A stretch of DNA of 64,000 bases from positions 124,001 through 188,000 of the forward strand of contig NZ_BOOU01000058.1 of the NCBI RefSeq assembly GCF_016863395.1. Reading direction: 5' to 3'. The position numbers were made by a program, and so were the translations under genes. The DNA comes from Sphaerisporangium rufum. Its GTDB lineage: Bacteria; Actinomycetota; Actinomycetes; Streptosporangiales; Streptosporangiaceae. Below the pieces are notes generated by a model that searched no databases, had not been told where the DNA came from, and saw only the letters and a list, made by a program, of their open reading frames with translations. This document shows positions 3,199 to 60,748 of this stretch, one piece after another. Positions within the stretch are counted from its first letter, which is position 1. Every line of letters starts with the position of its first letter.

Positions 3199-4152
3199 AT
3201 GGCTGAGATTCTGGTTCTCGTCGAGCACGTCGACGGTGCGGTCAAGAAGGTCACCCTGGAGCTGCTGACGCTGGCCCGCTCGCTGGGCTCGCCGTCCGCG
3301 GTCTGGGCCGGGGCCGGCTACTCCCCCGACGCCAAGGCCCAGCTCGCCGAGTACGGTGCCGACAAGATCTACGTCGCCGGCGCGGCGGAGATCGACGACT
3401 ACGTGGTGGCGCCCAAGGCCGAGCTGCTGGCCCAGCTGGTGTCCGCCGCCGCCCCGGCCGCGGTCCTGGTGGCCGCGAACGCCGAGGGCAAGGAGATCGC
3501 CGCCCGCCTGGCGATCAAGACCGACTCGGGCGTCATCACCGACGCGGTGGGCCTCGGCGAGGGCGTGCTCGCCGAGCAGTCCATCTTCGGCGGCGGCGTG
3601 GACGTGAAGTCCCGGGTGGCCAAGGGCACCCCGATCGTCGCGGTCCGGCCCAACGCGGCCAACCCCGAGCCCGCGGCCGGTGCCGGTGCCGAGGAGCAGG
3701 TGTCGGTCACCCTGTCCGACGCGGCCCAGGCGGCCAAGGTGGTCGAGCGCGTGCACGAGGAGAAGGGGGCCCGGCCCGAGCTCACCGAGGCGGCGATCGT
3801 CGTCTCCGGCGGCCGCGGCGTCGGCTCGGCGGAGAACTTCGCGGTGATCGAGCGGCTGGCCGACGCGCTGGGCGCCGCGGTCGGCGCCTCGCGCGCCGCG
3901 ACCGACGCCGGCTGGTACCCCCACCAGTTCCAGGTCGGGCAGACCGGCAAGACCGTCTCGCCGCAGCTCTACATCGCGGCGGGCATCTCCGGCGCCATCC
4001 AGCACCGGGCCGGCATGCAGACCGCCAAGACCATCCTGGCGATCAACAAGGACCCGGAGGCCCCGATCTTCGAGCTGGCCGACTTCGGCGTCGTGGGCGA
4101 CCTGCACCAGATCGTCCCCCAGCTCAGCGAAGAAGTAGAAAAGCGGAAGTAA
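3199..4152 (+). CDS. etfA: Electron transfer flavoprotein alpha subunit
   Basis: Large (alpha) FAD-binding subunit of the electron transfer flavoprotein, 317 residues. The N-terminal half is the ETF fold. The C-terminal FAD domain is plain: GGRGVGSAENF, then VGQTGKTVSPQLYIAAGISG and the closing stretch with AINKDPEAPIF and ADFGVVGDL. It starts 12 bp after etfB behind GAGAGGG and ends just before a strong hairpin, so the unit is a two-gene etfBA operon. Confidence 0.97.
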   Translation: MAEILVLVEHVDGAVKKVTLELLTLARSLGSPSAVWAGAGYSPDAKAQLAEYGADKIYVAGAAEIDDYVVAPKAELLAQLVSAAAPAAVLVAANAEGKEIAARLAIKTDSGVITDAVGLGEGVLAEQSIFGGGVDVKSRVAKGTPIVAVRPNAANPEPAAGAGAEEQVSVTLSDAAQAAKVVERVHEEKGARPELTEAAIVVSGGRGVGSAENFAVIERLADALGAAVGASRAATDAGWYPHQFQVGQTGKTVSPQLYIAAGISGAIQHRAGMQTAKTILAINKDPEAPIFELADFGVVGDLHQIVPQLSEEVEKRK

Positions 4153-4161
4153 CGCCCGCGC

Positions 4162-4217
4162 ACGACGGCGACCCTCGCCTGTCCCCTTGCCGGGGGACGG
4201 GCGAGGGTCGCCGTCGT
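4162..4217 (+). terminator. Long hairpin terminator after etfA
   Basis: Two 25-base arms (4162-4186 and 4193-4217) pair over their whole length with only one G-U wobble and leave a 6-base loop; TTT follows at 4217-4219. It begins 10 bp after the etfA stop and also lies 24 bp beyond the stop of the convergent gene, so it can serve both. Confidence 0.85.
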
Positions 4218-4240
4218 TTCCCGGCCGGGTGCGCTCGGGT

Positions 4241-5113
4241 CTACCGGTGGGGGTCGAAGCTCGCCAGGTAGGCGGCGGCCATGTCCTGGTCGCCGTGACC
4301 TTGGTCGATGGCGCGGCGGAACCGCTCGACGGCCGCCGGGGTGAGGTCGAGGCGGACGCCGTGCGCGGCGGCGGCCTGGCTGACCAGCCGGAGGTCCTTC
4401 TCGGCGTTGGCGAGCGTGAAACTGGGGGACAGGTCGCCCTCCAGCAGCGCCTTGGTCTTGGCCTGGAAGTACGCGCTGTCCAGCGGGCCGCCGGTGATCA
4501 GGTCGACGAACAGCTTCGGGTCCGTCCCCAGCCCCTTGGCGAGGGCCAGCGACTCGCCCAGCACGGCGGTGAGGGCGATCGCGTAGTTCACCCCGGCCAG
4601 CTTGAGCCGGGTGCCGGCGCCGCTCGCGCCGTCCTCCCCCAGCCACTCGGTGCGCCGGCCCATCGCGTCGAAGAGCGGCTGCAGGACCGGCCGGGCGTCC
4701 GCCGGCCCGGCGGCCAGGATGATCAGCTGCCCGCTCTCGGCGGGCTGCTTGGTGCCCTGGACCGGCGCGTCCACGAAGACCAGGCCGTGCTCGCCGGCGA
4801 GCTCGGCCAGCGGGGCCAGCGCGGCCGGCCCGACCGTGCTCATCTGCGCCCAGATCTGCCCGGGGCGCAGGCCCGCCGCCGCGCCGGTCATCGTCTCGCG
4901 CACGGCCTCGCCATCGGTGAGGATCGTGATGATCACGTCGGCGGACTCGACCGCCTCCGCGGGCGTGCCGGCGACGATCCCCCCGGCGTCCCGCAAGGGT
5001 TCTGCCCGGCTGGTCGTCCGGTTCCACACCCGCACCTGGTGGCCCTGCTTGAGCAGGTTGCGAGCCATCGGCGCACCCATGATCCCGGTGCCCAGTACCG
5101 CGACGGTCGTCAT
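4241..5113 (-). CDS. NAD(P)-dependent beta-hydroxyacid dehydrogenase (3-hydroxyisobutyrate dehydrogenase family)
   Basis: A 290-residue member of the 6-phosphogluconate/3-hydroxyisobutyrate dehydrogenase superfamily, which oxidises beta-hydroxyacids or reduces imines and aldehydes. The Rossmann motif GTGIMG is at residues 8-13. The substrate-loop signature appears as DAPVQGTKQPAESGQL, and the catalytic lysine lies in GTRLKLAGVNYA at about residue 170. The ATG at 5113 is chosen because AAGGGGGA lies eight bases upstream and the fold begins at once; the frame could extend 43 residues further up but that part is not family-like. The exact substrate (hydroxyisobutyrate, tartronate semialdehyde, succinate semialdehyde or an imine) cannot be read from sequence. 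Confidence 0.85.
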   Translation of the reverse strand: MTTVAVLGTGIMGAPMARNLLKQGHQVRVWNRTTSRAEPLRDAGGIVAGTPAEAVESADVIITILTDGEAVRETMTGAAAGLRPGQIWAQMSTVGPAALAPLAELAGEHGLVFVDAPVQGTKQPAESGQLIILAAGPADARPVLQPLFDAMGRRTEWLGEDGASGAGTRLKLAGVNYAIALTAVLGESLALAKGLGTDPKLFVDLITGGPLDSAYFQAKTKALLEGDLSPSFTLANAEKDLRLVSQAAAAHGVRLDLTPAAVERFRRAIDQGHGDQDMAAAYLASFDPHR

Positions 5114-5269
5114 AGCGATGTCCCCCTTGATGTGAAGTGCCACGTCGTCACCCAAGAATGCCCCGGATTGGCGGACCGTCCCACTTGCGGCGGAATGCGA
5201 GATCAGGGCCTTACTCCGGGTTCGTCGGCCACGTCCCGGCATCCGGAGCGGGCCGGCCGCCGGCCGGCG

Positions 5270-6598
5270 TCACGACCCGCGCGAGTCGGTGCCGGCCGGA
5301 CGGGCGATGCGCGCCGCCCGGCGGATCCGCGCGCCGGCCGGAAGGCGGCGAGTGTCCCCGGCGCGGCCGGCGGGCCGGGCGGGGGCGCCGCGGCGGCGCG
5401 GCCGCGGGCCGCCGACCGGGCGGATCGGGCGGGGGAGCGGCGGGTGGTCCAGCGGGCTCGCGGTGACCGGCAGCAGCCGGGCGGCCAGCGCGATGACCAC
5501 GCCGAGCACCACCGCGATCCCCAGCGCGACCCGCAGCGAGGCGGCGTGGCTGAGGAAGCCGATCACCACCGGGCCGAGCAGCAGCCCCGCGTACCCCATG
5601 GCGCCGGTCTGGGCGATCGCCGGCCCCGGGGTCGAGGTCGCTGTTCCGGCCAGCGACATCGCCATCGGCGACACCATGGCCACCGCCAGGCCGACCAGGA
5701 CCATGCCCGTCACCGCCACCACGGCGGACGACGAGGTGATCACCACGGTGAAGGTGGCCGCGGTGCCCAGGCCGGAGGCGATCATCAGCCGCCGGGCGCC
5801 CCACCGGGTGCGCAGCCGGTCGCCGGTGAGCCGGGCGGCGAGCATGCCCGCCTCGAACACCGGATAGCCGAGCGCGGCGACCGCCTCCGGGGCGCCGATG
5901 GTGCGCCGCAGGAACAGGCCGTTCCAGTCGGCCACCGCACCTTCCACCATGAACGCGCAGAACGCGATGGCGCCGAGCAGGTACACCAGCAGCGGCATCC
6001 GCCGTCGCGCCGGGCCCGCGTTCTGGGCCGGGTCGGTGGCCGGGTCCGGCAGCAGGCCGCGGCCGATCAGCACGAACGCCGGCACCGAGCCCGCGGCGAC
6101 GATGGCCAGGTGCGCGGGATAGGGAACGCCGAGCGCGATCAGCCCGGCGCCCAGCAGGCCGGCCGCCATGGCGCCGACACACCAGCCGGCGTGCAGGCCG
6201 TTCATCAGCGGGCGGCGGGCGGCGCGCTCGACCACCGAGCCCTGGGCGTTCATCGCCACGTCCACCGCGCCGAAGAGCATGCCGAAGACCGCCGCCGCGC
6301 CGACCGCCCAGCCGGGCGCCGGGGCGAACGCCACCCCGAGCAGCGCCACCGCGCTCAGCGGGCCGGCCACCCGCAGCACGGCGGCGCTACCGGCCCGTGC
6401 GAGCAGGCCGCGCATGGCCTGCATGGCCAGCAGCGCACCGAGCCCCCAGGCCAGCAGCACCGCGCTGACCTCGGACTCGGCCATGCCGAGCCGGTCGGCC
6501 AGCGCGGGCAGGCGCACGGTGAAGGTGCCGCACACCAGCCCCGCGAGGACGAAGACGAGGACCGCCCGCCCCCGGGCGGTCCTCAAACGGCGGATCAT
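5270..6598 (-). CDS. MFS transporter with basic C-terminal tail
   Basis: Major facilitator superfamily permease of 442 residues with about twelve hydrophobic segments and the inter-helix motif GDRLRTRWGARR in the middle loop. It resembles the YbjJ-like MFS group found beside TetR repressors. The ATG at 6598 follows AAAGGAAC. The last 60 or so residues, after the final membrane segment, are a proline- and arginine-rich tail that looks like read-through into low-complexity GC-rich DNA rather than a domain. It lies 108 bp downstream of the TetR gene on the same strand, so TetR probably controls it; the substrate is unknown. Confidence 0.82.
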   Translation of the reverse strand: MIRRLRTARGRAVLVFVLAGLVCGTFTVRLPALADRLGMAESEVSAVLLAWGLGALLAMQAMRGLLARAGSAAVLRVAGPLSAVALLGVAFAPAPGWAVGAAAVFGMLFGAVDVAMNAQGSVVERAARRPLMNGLHAGWCVGAMAAGLLGAGLIALGVPYPAHLAIVAAGSVPAFVLIGRGLLPDPATDPAQNAGPARRRMPLLVYLLGAIAFCAFMVEGAVADWNGLFLRRTIGAPEAVAALGYPVFEAGMLAARLTGDRLRTRWGARRLMIASGLGTAATFTVVITSSSAVVAVTGMVLVGLAVAMVSPMAMSLAGTATSTPGPAIAQTGAMGYAGLLLGPVVIGFLSHAASLRVALGIAVVLGVVIALAARLLPVTASPLDHPPLPRPIRPVGGPRPRRRGAPARPAGRAGDTRRLPAGARIRRAARIARPAGTDSRGS

Positions 6599-19208: not shown

Positions 19209-20150
19209 TCAGGTCATGCCGGAGCGGCCGCCATGGGGTGACGCGCATCCGTTCGGAGTGGCCGGGTGGTGATGGCGGGAGGGTCGGTCGAAGAGGTCGG
19301 CGGCGGTCGTGGCGGTGGCGGCCCGCTGGATCCAGGTGTCCAGCAGGGTGGTGTCCGTGCACTGCATGATGCGGTCGCGCATCTCGCCTGGGACCGGGAC
19401 GCCCCGTCCGGCCAGCAGCACGAGGACCGCCTCCGCCTTCCCTTCGGCCTTCCCTTCTTCTCTTCCTTCGGCGACGTACTTCTTGGCGAAGTCGCTCTGG
19501 TATTCGTACGTGCCCACCGCCATCAATACCTCCCAGTTCTTGCGCGCCGCCTCCGGCAGCATGGCGAATACGAAATCAGCGTACAACCGGGCCCGTTCGT
19601 CGTCGACGACGGTAAGGGCGGCCAGGCATGCCTCCAGCACCGGCTGGGCATCGTCCTGGCCGCCGTGGGTCACCGCCGACAGCACGGCCAGCTCGGGCGA
19701 GCGGATCGCCGTCTCGGCATCGGTTATCAGGGGGACCGCACCGGGGTCGGCTACCAGCGGAGTGAGATTCCACCCTGGGTGCCCCATGTCGATGGTCTTC
19801 GCGCACCATCGCGCGATCCCCGGGTCGGTACAGATGACCAGCAACAATGCCGGACATTTCAGGCGCGCACGGATGGATGCCAGGTAGACCGGCCAGCTCC
19901 ACCGCTTGCCGGGGTCACGGCCGCGTTGCACCTCGACCACCACGGCCAGCATTGGCTTGTCGGCCCACAGTACGGTAATCGTGTCTGATTGATATTCAAC
20001 CGGCTCGAACTGTGTCAGATCAGCCGACTCCACGCGTGCCTCGCGATGTGCGGGCAATGGCACTTTGAGCACCTGTTCCAGGACCTCGCCTGCCAATTCA
20101 GGACGATTCCTGAAAAGGGCGATCAACGCCTCGTGTTCCATCGTGAGCAT
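19209..20150 (-). CDS. Rpn-like PD-(D/E)XK nuclease family protein
   Basis: A 313-residue protein of a widespread, mostly unnamed family related to the Rpn/YhgA putative transposase-nuclease group. The core reads EHEALIALFRNRPELA at the start, then EARVESADLT, and the PD-(D/E)XK-like centre ADKPMLAVVVEVQRGRD (Glu-x-Gln in place of Glu-x-Lys, as in Rpn). The charged tract KKYVAEGREEGKAEGKAEA near residue 240 is a family hallmark. I chose ATG 20150 because the family begins there; a TTG at 20198 in AT-rich DNA is also in frame. TATGAT near 20245 on the minus strand may be its -10. Role unproven; relatives promote recombination and cut DNA. Confidence 0.65.
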   Translation of the reverse strand: MLTMEHEALIALFRNRPELAGEVLEQVLKVPLPAHREARVESADLTQFEPVEYQSDTITVLWADKPMLAVVVEVQRGRDPGKRWSWPVYLASIRARLKCPALLLVICTDPGIARWCAKTIDMGHPGWNLTPLVADPGAVPLITDAETAIRSPELAVLSAVTHGGQDDAQPVLEACLAALTVVDDERARLYADFVFAMLPEAARKNWEVLMAVGTYEYQSDFAKKYVAEGREEGKAEGKAEAVLVLLAGRGVPVPGEMRDRIMQCTDTTLLDTWIQRAATATTAADLFDRPSRHHHPATPNGCASPHGGRSGMT

Positions 20151-20423
20151 GGCCAGAACTTTATGGTGTCGGCAAAGCCCGCTCAAACTTTCGATCAAGT
20201 CTCTAATCTGCTGGCAATTAATGAATCGATATCATATTTCCCGTAGTGTCGCGGCCGTCACGTTCACATTTCGGGGGGGCACCGAGTGTCGAGCGGGCGA
20301 GGAGTGCGCGGTGCCGCCTGGCCGAGGAGCCGGGCACCGCGGGCACGCTGTGACCTGAAGCAGGTGAGGCCGGTGGGGACCGCCGCCCACCGGGCCTGCT
20401 CTTGTGACGGCCGTGCGGCCGGC

Positions 20424-20849
20424 TCAGTCCTTGATCTTCAGACCCATGGAGCGGGCGGTGCCGGCGATGATCTTCTCGGCCTGGTCCAGATCGGTGGTGT
20501 TCAGGTCCGGCAGCTTGGTGCGGGCGACCTCCCGCAGCTGCTCGCGGCTGATCGTCGCCACGCTCTGGTGCCCGGGGCGGGGACTTCCGGAGTCCAGGCC
20601 GGCGACCCGGCGCAGCAGGGACGCCGTGGTCGGCATCTTGGTCACCACGTCGAACGAGCGGTCCTCGTACACCGTGATCTCCGCGGGCACCACGAACCCG
20701 CGCTGCGCCTCGGTCGCGGCGTTGTAGCGCCGGCAGAAGTCCATCAGGTTGATGCCGACCGGGCCGAGGTCCTTGCCCACCGTCGCGGGACCGGCCTCAC
20801 CGGCCTTGAGCTGGATCTTCACCACTCTTACGATCTTGCTTTTCGCCAT
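20424..20849 (-). CDS. rplK: Ribosomal protein L11 paralog with altered thiopeptide-site prolines
   Basis: A 141-residue L11. The family skeleton is clear: [38 protein letters not shown] and the closing GTARSMGL. In ordinary L11 the loop of the N-terminal domain reads NPxPPVGPALGQAG. Here it is [13 protein letters not shown], one residue shorter: the first proline of the PP pair is gone, the second is Thr23, and the proline of GPALG is Lys26. Those prolines contact thiostrepton-type drugs, and changes there give resistance. The gene is alone, away from the usual secE-nusG-rplK-rplA operon, and is divergent from a MerR regulator. Its promoter has a 19-bp spacer and implies a leaderless mRNA. 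I infer a specialised, inducible L11. Confidence 0.88.
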
Positions 20850-20856
20850 GCCGGAA

Positions 20857-20887
20857 ACGGTAAAGTGTCCAGTTACTGGAGACTCAA
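20857..20887 (-). promoter_or_regulatory. MerR-type 19-bp-spacer promoter of the L11 paralog
   Basis: On the minus strand TTGAGT (20887-20882) and TACCGT (20862-20857) are separated by exactly 19 bp, the over-long spacer that MerR-family activators correct by twisting DNA. Inside the spacer lies the palindrome TCCAGT-T-ACTGGA (20868-20880), extendable to 20865-20883 with one mismatch. Transcription would begin near 20850, next to the ATG at 20849. The MerR gene begins at 20905 on the other strand. Confidence 0.75.
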
Positions 20888-20904
20888 CCGGAATAATCGG
20901 TGCC

Positions 20905-21840
20905 ATGGCCCGCGAGACGTACACGATCGGCCGGCTGGCCGCGCTGTCCGGCATCCCGGTGAAGACCATCCGCTTCTACTCCGACGCCGGCGTGCTGCCC
21001 GAGCGCGACCGCACCTCCGGCGGCTATCGGGTGTACGGGGAGGAGGATCTGGCCCGGCTGGAGCTGATCCGCGCGTTGCGCGACATCGGCGTCGGCCTGG
21101 CCGTGATCCGCTCGCTGGGCGAACGCGACCTGCGCGAGGTGCTGGAACTGCACCTGCGGACGGTGGAGACCCAGCTCAAGGGCCTGCAGCGCACCCGGGC
21201 CATCCTGCGGGCCACACTGGAGCGCGGCGAGCCGTCCGAGACCGACCTGCGCCGGCTGAACACGCTCGGCCGGTTGGGCGCCGCCGAGCGGGACGCGCTG
21301 CTGGACACCTTCGTCGCCGAGGTCGGCGGCGGCGTGCCGGCCCGCGAGCGGTGGCTGACCTGCCTGCGGGAGGCCATGGTGCCCGACCTGCCCGCCGAGC
21401 CCACCGTCGAGCAGCTCGACGCCTGGCTGGAGCTGGTCGAGCTGCTCGCCGACGAGGACTACCAGGCGACGCTGCGCACCCGGAGCGACGAATACTGGCG
21501 CGAACGCGAGGCGGACGGCGGCTATGACCCGGCGGTCTGGCAGAAGGCCGACCAGGAGCTGGTGGAGATGGTGCTCGCCGCGGTGGCGGCGGGCGTCGCG
21601 CCGGACTCGGCGGCCGCCCGGCCGGTGCTGGACCGGGCGGCGGGCCTGCTGACCGAGATGCACGGCGGGCCGGACGGGCCGGAGTTCCGCCGCACGCTGC
21701 TGCGGGGCTACGAACAGCATGACCCGCGGGCCACCCGCCAGTGGCAGCTGGCCGCGATCATCCGGGGCGACCCCTGGCCGCACCCGCAGACCGCCGCGCA
21801 CACCTGGCTGGAGCAGGCACTGCGCGCCCACACCATGTGA
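20905..21840 (+). CDS. MerR-family transcriptional regulator with large helical C-terminus
   Basis: A 311-residue MerR protein. Residues 1-75 are the winged helix ([39 protein letters not shown]), followed by a coiled-coil dimer helix to about 115. About 190 residues of helical effector domain follow ([16 protein letters not shown], then [30 protein letters not shown]). The effector domain is longer than TipAS (the thiopeptide-binding domain of TipA) and I cannot identify it as such. The ATG begins a family-like sequence; AATAAT just upstream may be a -10 for a leaderless mRNA. It is divergent from the L11 paralog, whose promoter has MerR geometry. Confidence 0.92.
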
Positions 21841-23112: not shown

Positions 23113-24183
23113 ATGAGCCTTCGCGTGCTTGCCGCCATGTCGGGCGGCGTCGATTCGGCCGTGGCCGCCGCCCGCGCCGCCGAGGCGGGGTACGACGTGA
23201 CCGGGGTTCACCTGGCGCTGTCGTCCAACCCGCGGTCGTACCGGACCGGCGCCCGCGGGTGCTGCACGCTGGAGGACTCGCGGGACGCCCGGCGGGCCGC
23301 CGACGTGATCGGCATCCCCTTCTACGTGTGGGACATGGCCGAGCGCTTCCACCGCGATGTGGTAGAGGACTTCGTCGGCGAGTACGCGGCCGGCCGCACC
23401 CCGAACCCCTGCCTGCGCTGCAACGAGAAGATCAAGTTCACCGCGGTGCTGGACCGGGCGATGGCGCTCGGCTTCGACGCGGTGGTCACAGGTCACCACG
23501 CCCGGCTGGCGGGCGGGGTGCTGCGCCGCAGCGTCGACGCGGGCAAGGACCAGTCGTACGTCCTCGGGGTGCTGACCCGCGAGCAGCTCGCGCACGCGAT
23601 GTTCCCGCTGGGCGACACCACCAAGGCGCAGGTGCGGGCGGAGGCCGCCGACCGCGGGCTCACCGTGGCCGACAAGCCGGACAGCCACGACATCTGCTTC
23701 ATCGCCGACGGCGACACCCGTGGCTTCCTGGCCGAGCGGCTGGGCGCCGAGCCCGGGCCGATCGTCGACGAGTCCGGCGCGGTGGTCGGCGGGCACGACG
23801 GCGCTTACGGCTTCACCGTGGGCCAGCGCAAGGGCCTGCGCATCGACCGGCCGGCGCCGGACGGGCGGCCGCGCTACGTGCTGTCCATCGAGCCGGTGTC
23901 CAACACGGTGACGGTGGGCCCGCGCGCGTCGCTGGCGGCGAGTTCGATCGTCGGCGAGCGCCCGGTGTGGAACGGCCCGCTGCCCGAGCCGGTGGCGCCG
24001 CTGGCCTGCCAGGTGCAGCTGCGCGCGCACGGCGAGGTGTACGGCTGCCGGGCCCAGCTGTCCGGCGGCGAGCTGCACGTGGAGCTGGACACCCCGGCGG
24101 CCGGGGTGGCGGCGGGCCAGGCGGCCGTGCTGTACGACGGCGACACCGTCATCGGCTCGGCCACCATCTCCGCCGCCCGCTGA
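23113..24183 (+). CDS. mnmA: tRNA-specific 2-thiouridylase MnmA
   Basis: Adds sulfur to U34 of Glu, Gln and Lys tRNAs using ATP and sulfur relayed from a cysteine desulfurase. The 356-residue protein has the PP-loop SGGVDSAV (10-17), the first catalytic cysteine C100 in NPCLRCN and the second C195 in [10 protein letters not shown]. The region [10 protein letters not shown] and the C-terminal beta-barrel ([10 protein letters not shown]) are normal. The start at 23113 gives [12 protein letters not shown]. In related genomes the cysteine desulfurase sits just upstream; here it is 14.7 kb away. Confidence 0.97.
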
Positions 24184-60394: not shown

Positions 60395-60748
60395 CTTTGC
60401 GGCCGGCTGCCAGGCGCGACGGAATGCCGAACACCCACCCGCCTCGATAGAGGCCTGTCACTTCGGATGGCCAAAGATGCTGTCTGAGGGTTGGCGTGGA
60501 TTGTTTACCTGCTTCGCGCGGGATAGCGATTTTGAGGCTCCATGAGTGTTCCGCGGCCGGCCGAGACGTATTGTCGTTCTATAAAGGCATGCGATGTATG
60601 GTAGCGGTTATGCCGGTAAGCCGGTTTTAGTGTTATGGGCGACGCGTTCGCGGGCGCGCTAGAACTCGATCTCGATGATGAACGGCCGGAGCGGCCTGGC
60701 CCCCACTCATTGCGCACCATCGCAGTTCAGCCAGTGACCGCCGTCCGC

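Follow-up and report, generated by a model that had tools for sequence, protein, structure and literature searches.

The window analysed here is a 64,000-nucleotide stretch of the genome of Sphaerisporangium rufum. On its reverse strand, at 20424–20849, lies a gene for a second ribosomal protein L11 of 141 amino acids (hereafter L11p; start codon at 20849), and on the forward strand, at 20905–21840, a gene for a MerR-family regulator of 311 amino acids. The two are divergent, as an earlier note on this sequence had stated, and 55 bp apart. That note placed the L11 gene at 20424–20905; the first coordinate is correct, but the gene reaches only to 20849, and the remainder consists of the intergenic 55 bp together with the first base of the MerR gene's start codon. 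The protein is a full L11, as proposed: it scores 165.6 bits against the NCBIfam L11 equivalog TIGR01632 (cut-off 141.85, residues 4–140) and passes both Pfam L11 domain cut-offs (PF00298 and PF03946). There are two L11 matches in the assembly (7.8 Mb, 99.28% complete), which bears out the view that L11p is not the sole L11 of the genome. The other match, at 60668–61087 of contig C63, is the housekeeping copy, with NusG-like and L1-like genes around it, of which the L1-like gene follows it (by eye). L11p is 56% identical to this protein, and its gene stands apart from the nusG-rplK-rplA cluster, adjoining MerR. In the RNA-binding half, residues K114, D117–N119, G132, T133, R135, M137 and G138 are invariant in 79 of 79 L11 and L11p rows, so that L11p is expected to have kept its binding to the ribosome.

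Two neighbouring genes can be mentioned. On the reverse strand at 19209–20198 is an open reading frame of 329 amino acids without a match to any Pfam family at E 0.001; its C-terminal repeats (EGREEGKAEGKAEA) presumably resemble those of the Rpn/transposase-nuclease type. On the forward strand at 23113–24183 is an MnmA-like gene. It accompanies MerR-L11p, or what is left of the pair, in five loci of Sphaerisporangium (L033, L035, L036, L037 and L041); none was found close to L11p in G005 (L034) or in G014 (L038), the latter from the other genus examined.

Copies that are 67–100% identical to L11p (class A) are present in 33 of the 345 genomes searched in the order, and belong to ten genera, all from the window's family. 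Each is an extra L11, since all 33 genomes have two or more L11 matches, and relatives with the same loop are accordingly not housekeeping copies. Thirty of these loci were fetched; the class A genes of G310, G311 and G346 (the last cut by a contig end) lie outside this set. The MerR-L11 pairs that had been suggested for other genomes do exist: a MerR match adjoins L11p in 29 of the 30 fetched loci, and is apparently intact in 27, the other two being L052, with the first part of MerR alone, and L061, where it is in two pieces. The exception is G005 (S. album), in which MerR is about 21 kb from L11p on the same contig. Both the pairing and the promoter described below are conserved over the ten genera. 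A scan of named genomes for VGKDLGP returned 51 stretches, 28 of them not L11 and 23 of them L11p; many of the latter overlap genomes already counted, and they were kept out of the counts. The L11p stretches come from Streptosporangium, Nonomuraea, Sphaerisporangium, Spongiactinospora, Sinosporangium, Thermocatellispora, Bailinhaonella and Rhizohabitans, together with one actinobacterial metagenome-assembled genome.

A more distant second L11 (class B, ten intact copies) is found in other genera, and also in family f3 within the order and in family f19 outside it. Among 348 class-level genomes outside the order there is a second L11 match in four: two are class B (G492 and G530), one is a weak match of 32% (G684), and one (G414, L196) represents another type, whose shortened loop (NANVA-KIGQALG) contains no proline and whose hinge reads ATT. 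Upstream of this last gene there is no promoter with a 19-bp spacer; by eye, the spacer is 17 bp. Within the order, the second L11 matches of G001, G025, G028, G092, G170, G215 and G287 are truncated, partial or split. In a tree of L11 proteins, which rests on few columns, classes A and B form one group each, apart from housekeeping L11, and the micrococcin immunity protein TclQ falls with the L11 of Firmicutes. By eye, the ten class B loci have no common neighbour gene besides MerR. In one of them (L039 of G017, 3763–6428), the class B gene has its own 19-bp-spacer promoter and lies directly downstream of what we take, by eye, to be a gene for an ABC-F-like ATPase, a class that includes ribosome-protection proteins.

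The loop of L11p at codons 21–29 (20763–20789, reverse strand) reads PA-TVGKDLG where the housekeeping L11 of the same genome has PAPPVGTALG: one proline is deleted, Thr stands in place of the next, and Lys occupies position 26. The deletion, the Thr and Lys26 had been recognized before, and all stand. The loss of a third proline, also claimed, does not, because position 26 is already Thr in the strain's own housekeeping L11, and L11p is therefore short of only two prolines relative to that copy; the wording Pro-to-Lys suits a comparison with other bacteria, but not one within this strain. The alignment comprised 30 class A, 10 class B and 2 TclQ rows, and 39 housekeeping rows that represent 36 genes (three entered twice) and 35 distinct proteins. 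The housekeeping loop is PAPPVG[TP]ALG in all 39, whereas each of the 40 class A and B paralogs lacks one loop residue and has Lys at position 26. The proline after the gap is likewise replaced in 40 of 40, by Thr, Asn, Ala or Ser in class A and by Asp or Glu in class B, and the first loop proline is present in class A and absent from class B. The interdomain hinge is also altered, with KTPPA changed to KMPTT at codons 74–75 (20625–20630, reverse strand). At the second of these sites the residue is Ala in all 39 housekeeping rows and Thr in class A (30/30), class B (10/10) and TclQ (2/2); at the first, Thr is confined to class A among the rows compared.

Published work connects this loop with drug action. 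In the part of PMC5960728 that deals with the site, the thiazole rings of thiopeptides stack on the prolines of uL11, and resistance arises from changes at these prolines as well as from mutations at A1067/A1095. The L11 changes P22S, P23L or G25V raised the tolerated drug level in B. megaterium (cited in a section of PMC9769715), and a S. aureus isolate that survived a mixture containing micrococcin had L11 Pro26Ser and a lowered micrococcin sensitivity (as given in the relevant section of PMC12285270). To the contrary, a review holds, in its passage on the subject, that thiostrepton binding is not abolished by L11 mutations and that affinity is lowered by rRNA mutations (PMC3917276). A further candidate site was Lys89, which is altered in one nosiheptide-resistant isolate of M. 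tuberculosis according to another section of PMC9769715. It is changed in 27 of 30 class A proteins; as a marker of resistance it is weak, because Lys is kept in 3 of 10 class B proteins and in both TclQ rows, and Ser occurs there in 2 of 39 housekeeping rows.

The promoter of L11p (20857–20887, reverse strand) is TTGAGT-19 bp-TACCGT, with the -10 box ending 7 nt before the ATG, and its spacer contains a dyad, TCCAGTAACTGGA (20868–20880), that is a putative MerR operator. This arrangement, which the earlier note described correctly, has the geometry of MerR targets (a 19–20 bp spacer and a dyad), and a search of the genome with the promoter-operator pattern, allowing up to three mismatches, gave one match, that of L11p. 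The more general pattern TTG[AC]N2-N19-TANNNT, chosen after the sequences had been looked at, occurs in the 150 nt preceding the gene in all 40 paralogs compared (30 of class A and 10 of class B). It precedes none of the 39 housekeeping rows, and among 8000 mononucleotide shuffles 0.46% contain it. With the other spacers between 14 and 23 bp it is found in none of the 40 paralogs, and in three housekeeping rows in all. In front of the 30 class A genes that were fetched, the dyad is retained with small changes. For 29 of these 30 genes the -10 box ends 6–7 nt short of the start codon, and for this reason the L11p message is probably leaderless.

The MerR protein begins with a winged helix-turn-helix domain (residues 6–70; 20920–21114, forward strand; PF13411, 65.9 bits; PF00376, 49.8 bits), and residues 112–311 (21238–21837) are predicted to form an all-helical sensor domain (AlphaFold2, mean pLDDT 88.7). 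Within the sensor, residues 205–279 (21517–21741) give a weak match to TipAS (PF07739), the thiopeptide-binding domain of the MerR regulator TipA; its score of 15.9 bits is below the curated cut-off of 23.8. PF07739 is the family most often matched by class A sensors, with 10 of 19 giving a match, and 9 of 19 none, in a Pfam scan at E up to 10. The cut-off is exceeded in two loci, L111 (25.4 bits) and L114 (25.5 bits), both from Spongiactinospora. Twelve further MerRs were scanned, of which one from G026 scored 14.4 bits and an ortholog of the class A regulators that lacks an L11p scored 18.4 bits. Eight more gave no TipAS match; nor did the two MerRs adjoining class B L11 genes (E up to 1). 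A Foldseek search with the sensor of about 200 amino acids returned 48 hits, none of them significant (best E 2.1), of which the one with the highest probability was TipAS bound to promothiocin (2mbz; probability 0.41, TM score 0.50 by target and 0.38 by query, E 3.1). The next six were chains of the AlbA drug-binding domain (probability 0.07–0.14, E values not significant), and all others had probabilities of 0.05 or less. A sequence search of solved structures gave none that covers the sensor, and among the 40 hits of a BFVD fold search there was none at E up to 0.001. The observed relatedness to TipAS is weak to moderate. The earlier note had regarded the inducer domain as not obviously TipAS; given the PF07739 matches and the fold hits, it is best read as a domain that is likely to be a diverged TipAS. 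A single active Cys, as in TipAS, was also looked for among the class A MerRs (L052 and L061 left out), and 19 of 27 have Cys at either of two neighbouring helix sites. This residue is not universal and lies outside the TipAS-matching part, and is a lead only. The MerR alignments (A1 and A3) contain neither damaged copies nor MerRs that run off the edge of a locus.

The association of regulator and L11 extends in part to class B. In L125 and L126 the class B gene also has a divergent MerR, 35–38% identical to that of the window. In G017, G026, G064 and G530 a MerR of the same subfamily is encoded elsewhere and has a similar dyad upstream of its own gene, which suggests that it may control the class B gene in trans. 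In G190 and G198 the dyad differs and no link between MerR and class B was found, and in G206 and G492 there is no MerR of the subfamily at E 1e-20, and no link to the class B L11.

Three known systems resemble parts of this arrangement. TclQ, which with TclT represents the alternative L11 proteins of micrococcin and thiocillin clusters, is like L11p a second, divergent L11 beside the normal one in the same cell, and has the Ala-to-Thr change of the hinge in common with it. In the sections of PMC9927498 and PMC6804068 on this protein, the alternative L11 protects a cell that also holds normal L11, and the former section credits it with a micrococcin MIC above 100 ug/mL. TclQ is encoded inside a biosynthetic cluster, whereas the stretches examined around L11p show no genes of this sort; it groups with Firmicutes L11, apart from classes A and B; and L11p, unlike TclQ, has a MerR of its own. 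TclQ also keeps PAPPVGT and all loop prolines, whereas L11p is without two of them, so loss from the loop is not required for immunity. For L11 paralogs of B. cereus, the part of PMC10704990 that discusses them states that ribosome binding was untested there. The second system is the TipA class (TipAL/TipAS, SkgA and Mta), which shares with the window MerR a MerR helix-turn-helix followed by an all-helical sensor. The window protein differs in its sensor, of about 200 amino acids and strongly diverged, and in its apparent target, a ribosomal protein gene. The section of PMC7762955 devoted to TipA views it as a minimal autoregulated multidrug-resistance system, in which TipAS binds thiopeptides covalently via a Cys. 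Third, the TsnR/NshR methyltransferase gives protection at the same drug site of the 50S subunit, but modifies A1067 of 23S rRNA and does not replace a protein. The open-access literature searched, with most subscription papers and preprints outside its scope, yielded the thiocillin and micrococcin L11 paralogs and TipA, and no MerR-controlled, stand-alone L11, in agreement with the earlier view that such a device is not a known stand-alone system. What appears to be new is the proposed joining of TclQ-like target replacement and TipA-like sensing in one dedicated pair, spread over ten genera of the window's family.

Taken together, the literature on proline stacking and resistance, on protection by TclQ and on TipAS makes drug-induced replacement of L11 the best reading. 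We consider it probable that L11p and MerR form a stand-alone, drug-inducible system that provides a thiopeptide-resistant L11 by target replacement. MerR would be a TipA-like drug sensor that, without ligand, keeps the promoter with its over-long 19-bp spacer silent. A thiopeptide-type antibiotic would bind the diverged TipAS domain, and ligand-bound MerR would then distort the operator and turn on L11p, probably from a leaderless mRNA. L11p would supplant the housekeeping L11 in 50S subunits, and there its shortened loop, which has Lys26 and lacks two prolines on which the drug stacks, and its altered hinge would prevent the drug from wedging itself between L11 and helices 43/44 of 23S rRNA. 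The outcome would be inducible target replacement that is independent of a drug cluster. The 23S drug-binding loop agrees with the expected sequence in each of the 13 genomes checked, ten of which carry L11p and three of which do not, so that, L11p aside, their ribosomes are expected to be sensitive to the drug.

Foremost among the rivals is a ribosome specialised for stress or for a particular stage, in which the changed loop and hinge would alter RelA activation, EF-G/IF2 traffic or termination, and MerR would sense a metabolic or stress ligand rather than an antibiotic. The N-terminal domain of L11 is central to RelA and factor function, and the paralogs differ from housekeeping L11 also at sites off the known drug contacts, for example positions 33 and 59. 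The regulator, moreover, can outlive its partner: among Sphaerisporangium relatives that retain MerR, L11p is truncated in G001 (L156) and gone in G002 (L157) and G009 (L158), the last with part of the former L11p promoter still visible. Because of this retention the window MerR may have other duties, perhaps drug sequestration, as is reported for TipA. Yet the loop that changed in 40 of 40 paralogs is the one that contacts the drug, the sensor resembles the drug-binding domains TipAS and AlbA, and the hinge change is common to TclQ. The patchy presence of L11p and its repeated decay, with further remnants in G170, G215 and G025, are also more in keeping with an accessory resistance gene than with a core response. 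On balance we regard a stress-specialised ribosome as unlikely, though worth keeping in mind.

A less probable alternative still is self-immunity, with L11p either a relic of the strain's own thiopeptide-like cluster or its partner in trans, and not serving as defence against others. A candidate for such a cluster does exist, at the end of contig C96 (L187; G000:C96:46900–55900), where it is cut off by the contig end; the earlier statement that there is no thiopeptide cluster is right for the surroundings of L11p and needs qualification for the genome. It contains YcaO and thiopep_ocin proteins over the NCBIfam cut-offs, SagB-like and precursor-binding-like matches below them, and LanB-like and peptidase-like genes recognized by eye or below cut-off; TclQ-type L11 paralogs sit inside clusters of this kind. 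Homologs of YcaO and the other cluster genes are, however, absent from the 64-kb window, and with positive controls detected none was found in 63 stretches, namely the window itself plus 62 loci that surround L11p genes (with flanks of about 1.5 kb to 12 kb, many of them about 1.5 kb and shorter at contig or locus ends, with overlap of species). Nor is an association of L11p with thiopeptide-type genes convincing, as PF14028, which is not specific to thiopeptides, is about equally common in carriers (33 of 43) and non-carriers (20 of 29). None of the 43 class A and B carriers checked has TsnR; among 29 non-carriers it occurs in one, G010, a congener that has a thiopeptide-like cluster and no L11p. 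In that cluster (L189; G010:C42:36000–54180) there are two YcaO genes over cut-off and a pyridine-synthase-like match far below cut-off, and the TsnR/NshR methyltransferase, over its curated cut-off, is right beside it. Finally, a decaying, functionless duplicate is highly improbable: truncated or partial copies do occur in G001, G170, G215 and G025, but the frame is without internal stop in the 33 class A genomes (one cut by a contig end), median NG86 dN/dS in class A is 0.27 (range 0.08 to 4.15 over 306 non-independent pairs of equal length with dS < 2), the promoter is present in 40 of 40 paralogs, and a divergent MerR match in 29 of 30 loci.

Returning to drug-induced replacement of L11, a wider and decidedly more tentative possibility is that classes A and B are parts of an old actinomycete family of drug-switched spare L11 proteins, in which different TipA-like or other MerR sensors have been set upon the same 19-bp promoter design, and in which a leaderless message may allow L11p to be made during a translation block. 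If the proposed reading is true, these actinomycetes would possess a stand-alone, inducible defence, in which one ribosomal protein is exchanged for another on exposure to an antibiotic that targets the ribosome, and TipA-like sensors would gain a clear downstream target. The pair would also provide a clean test of resistance via ribosomal protein exchange, and thiopeptide tolerance would be predicted in actinomycetes that make no thiopeptide.
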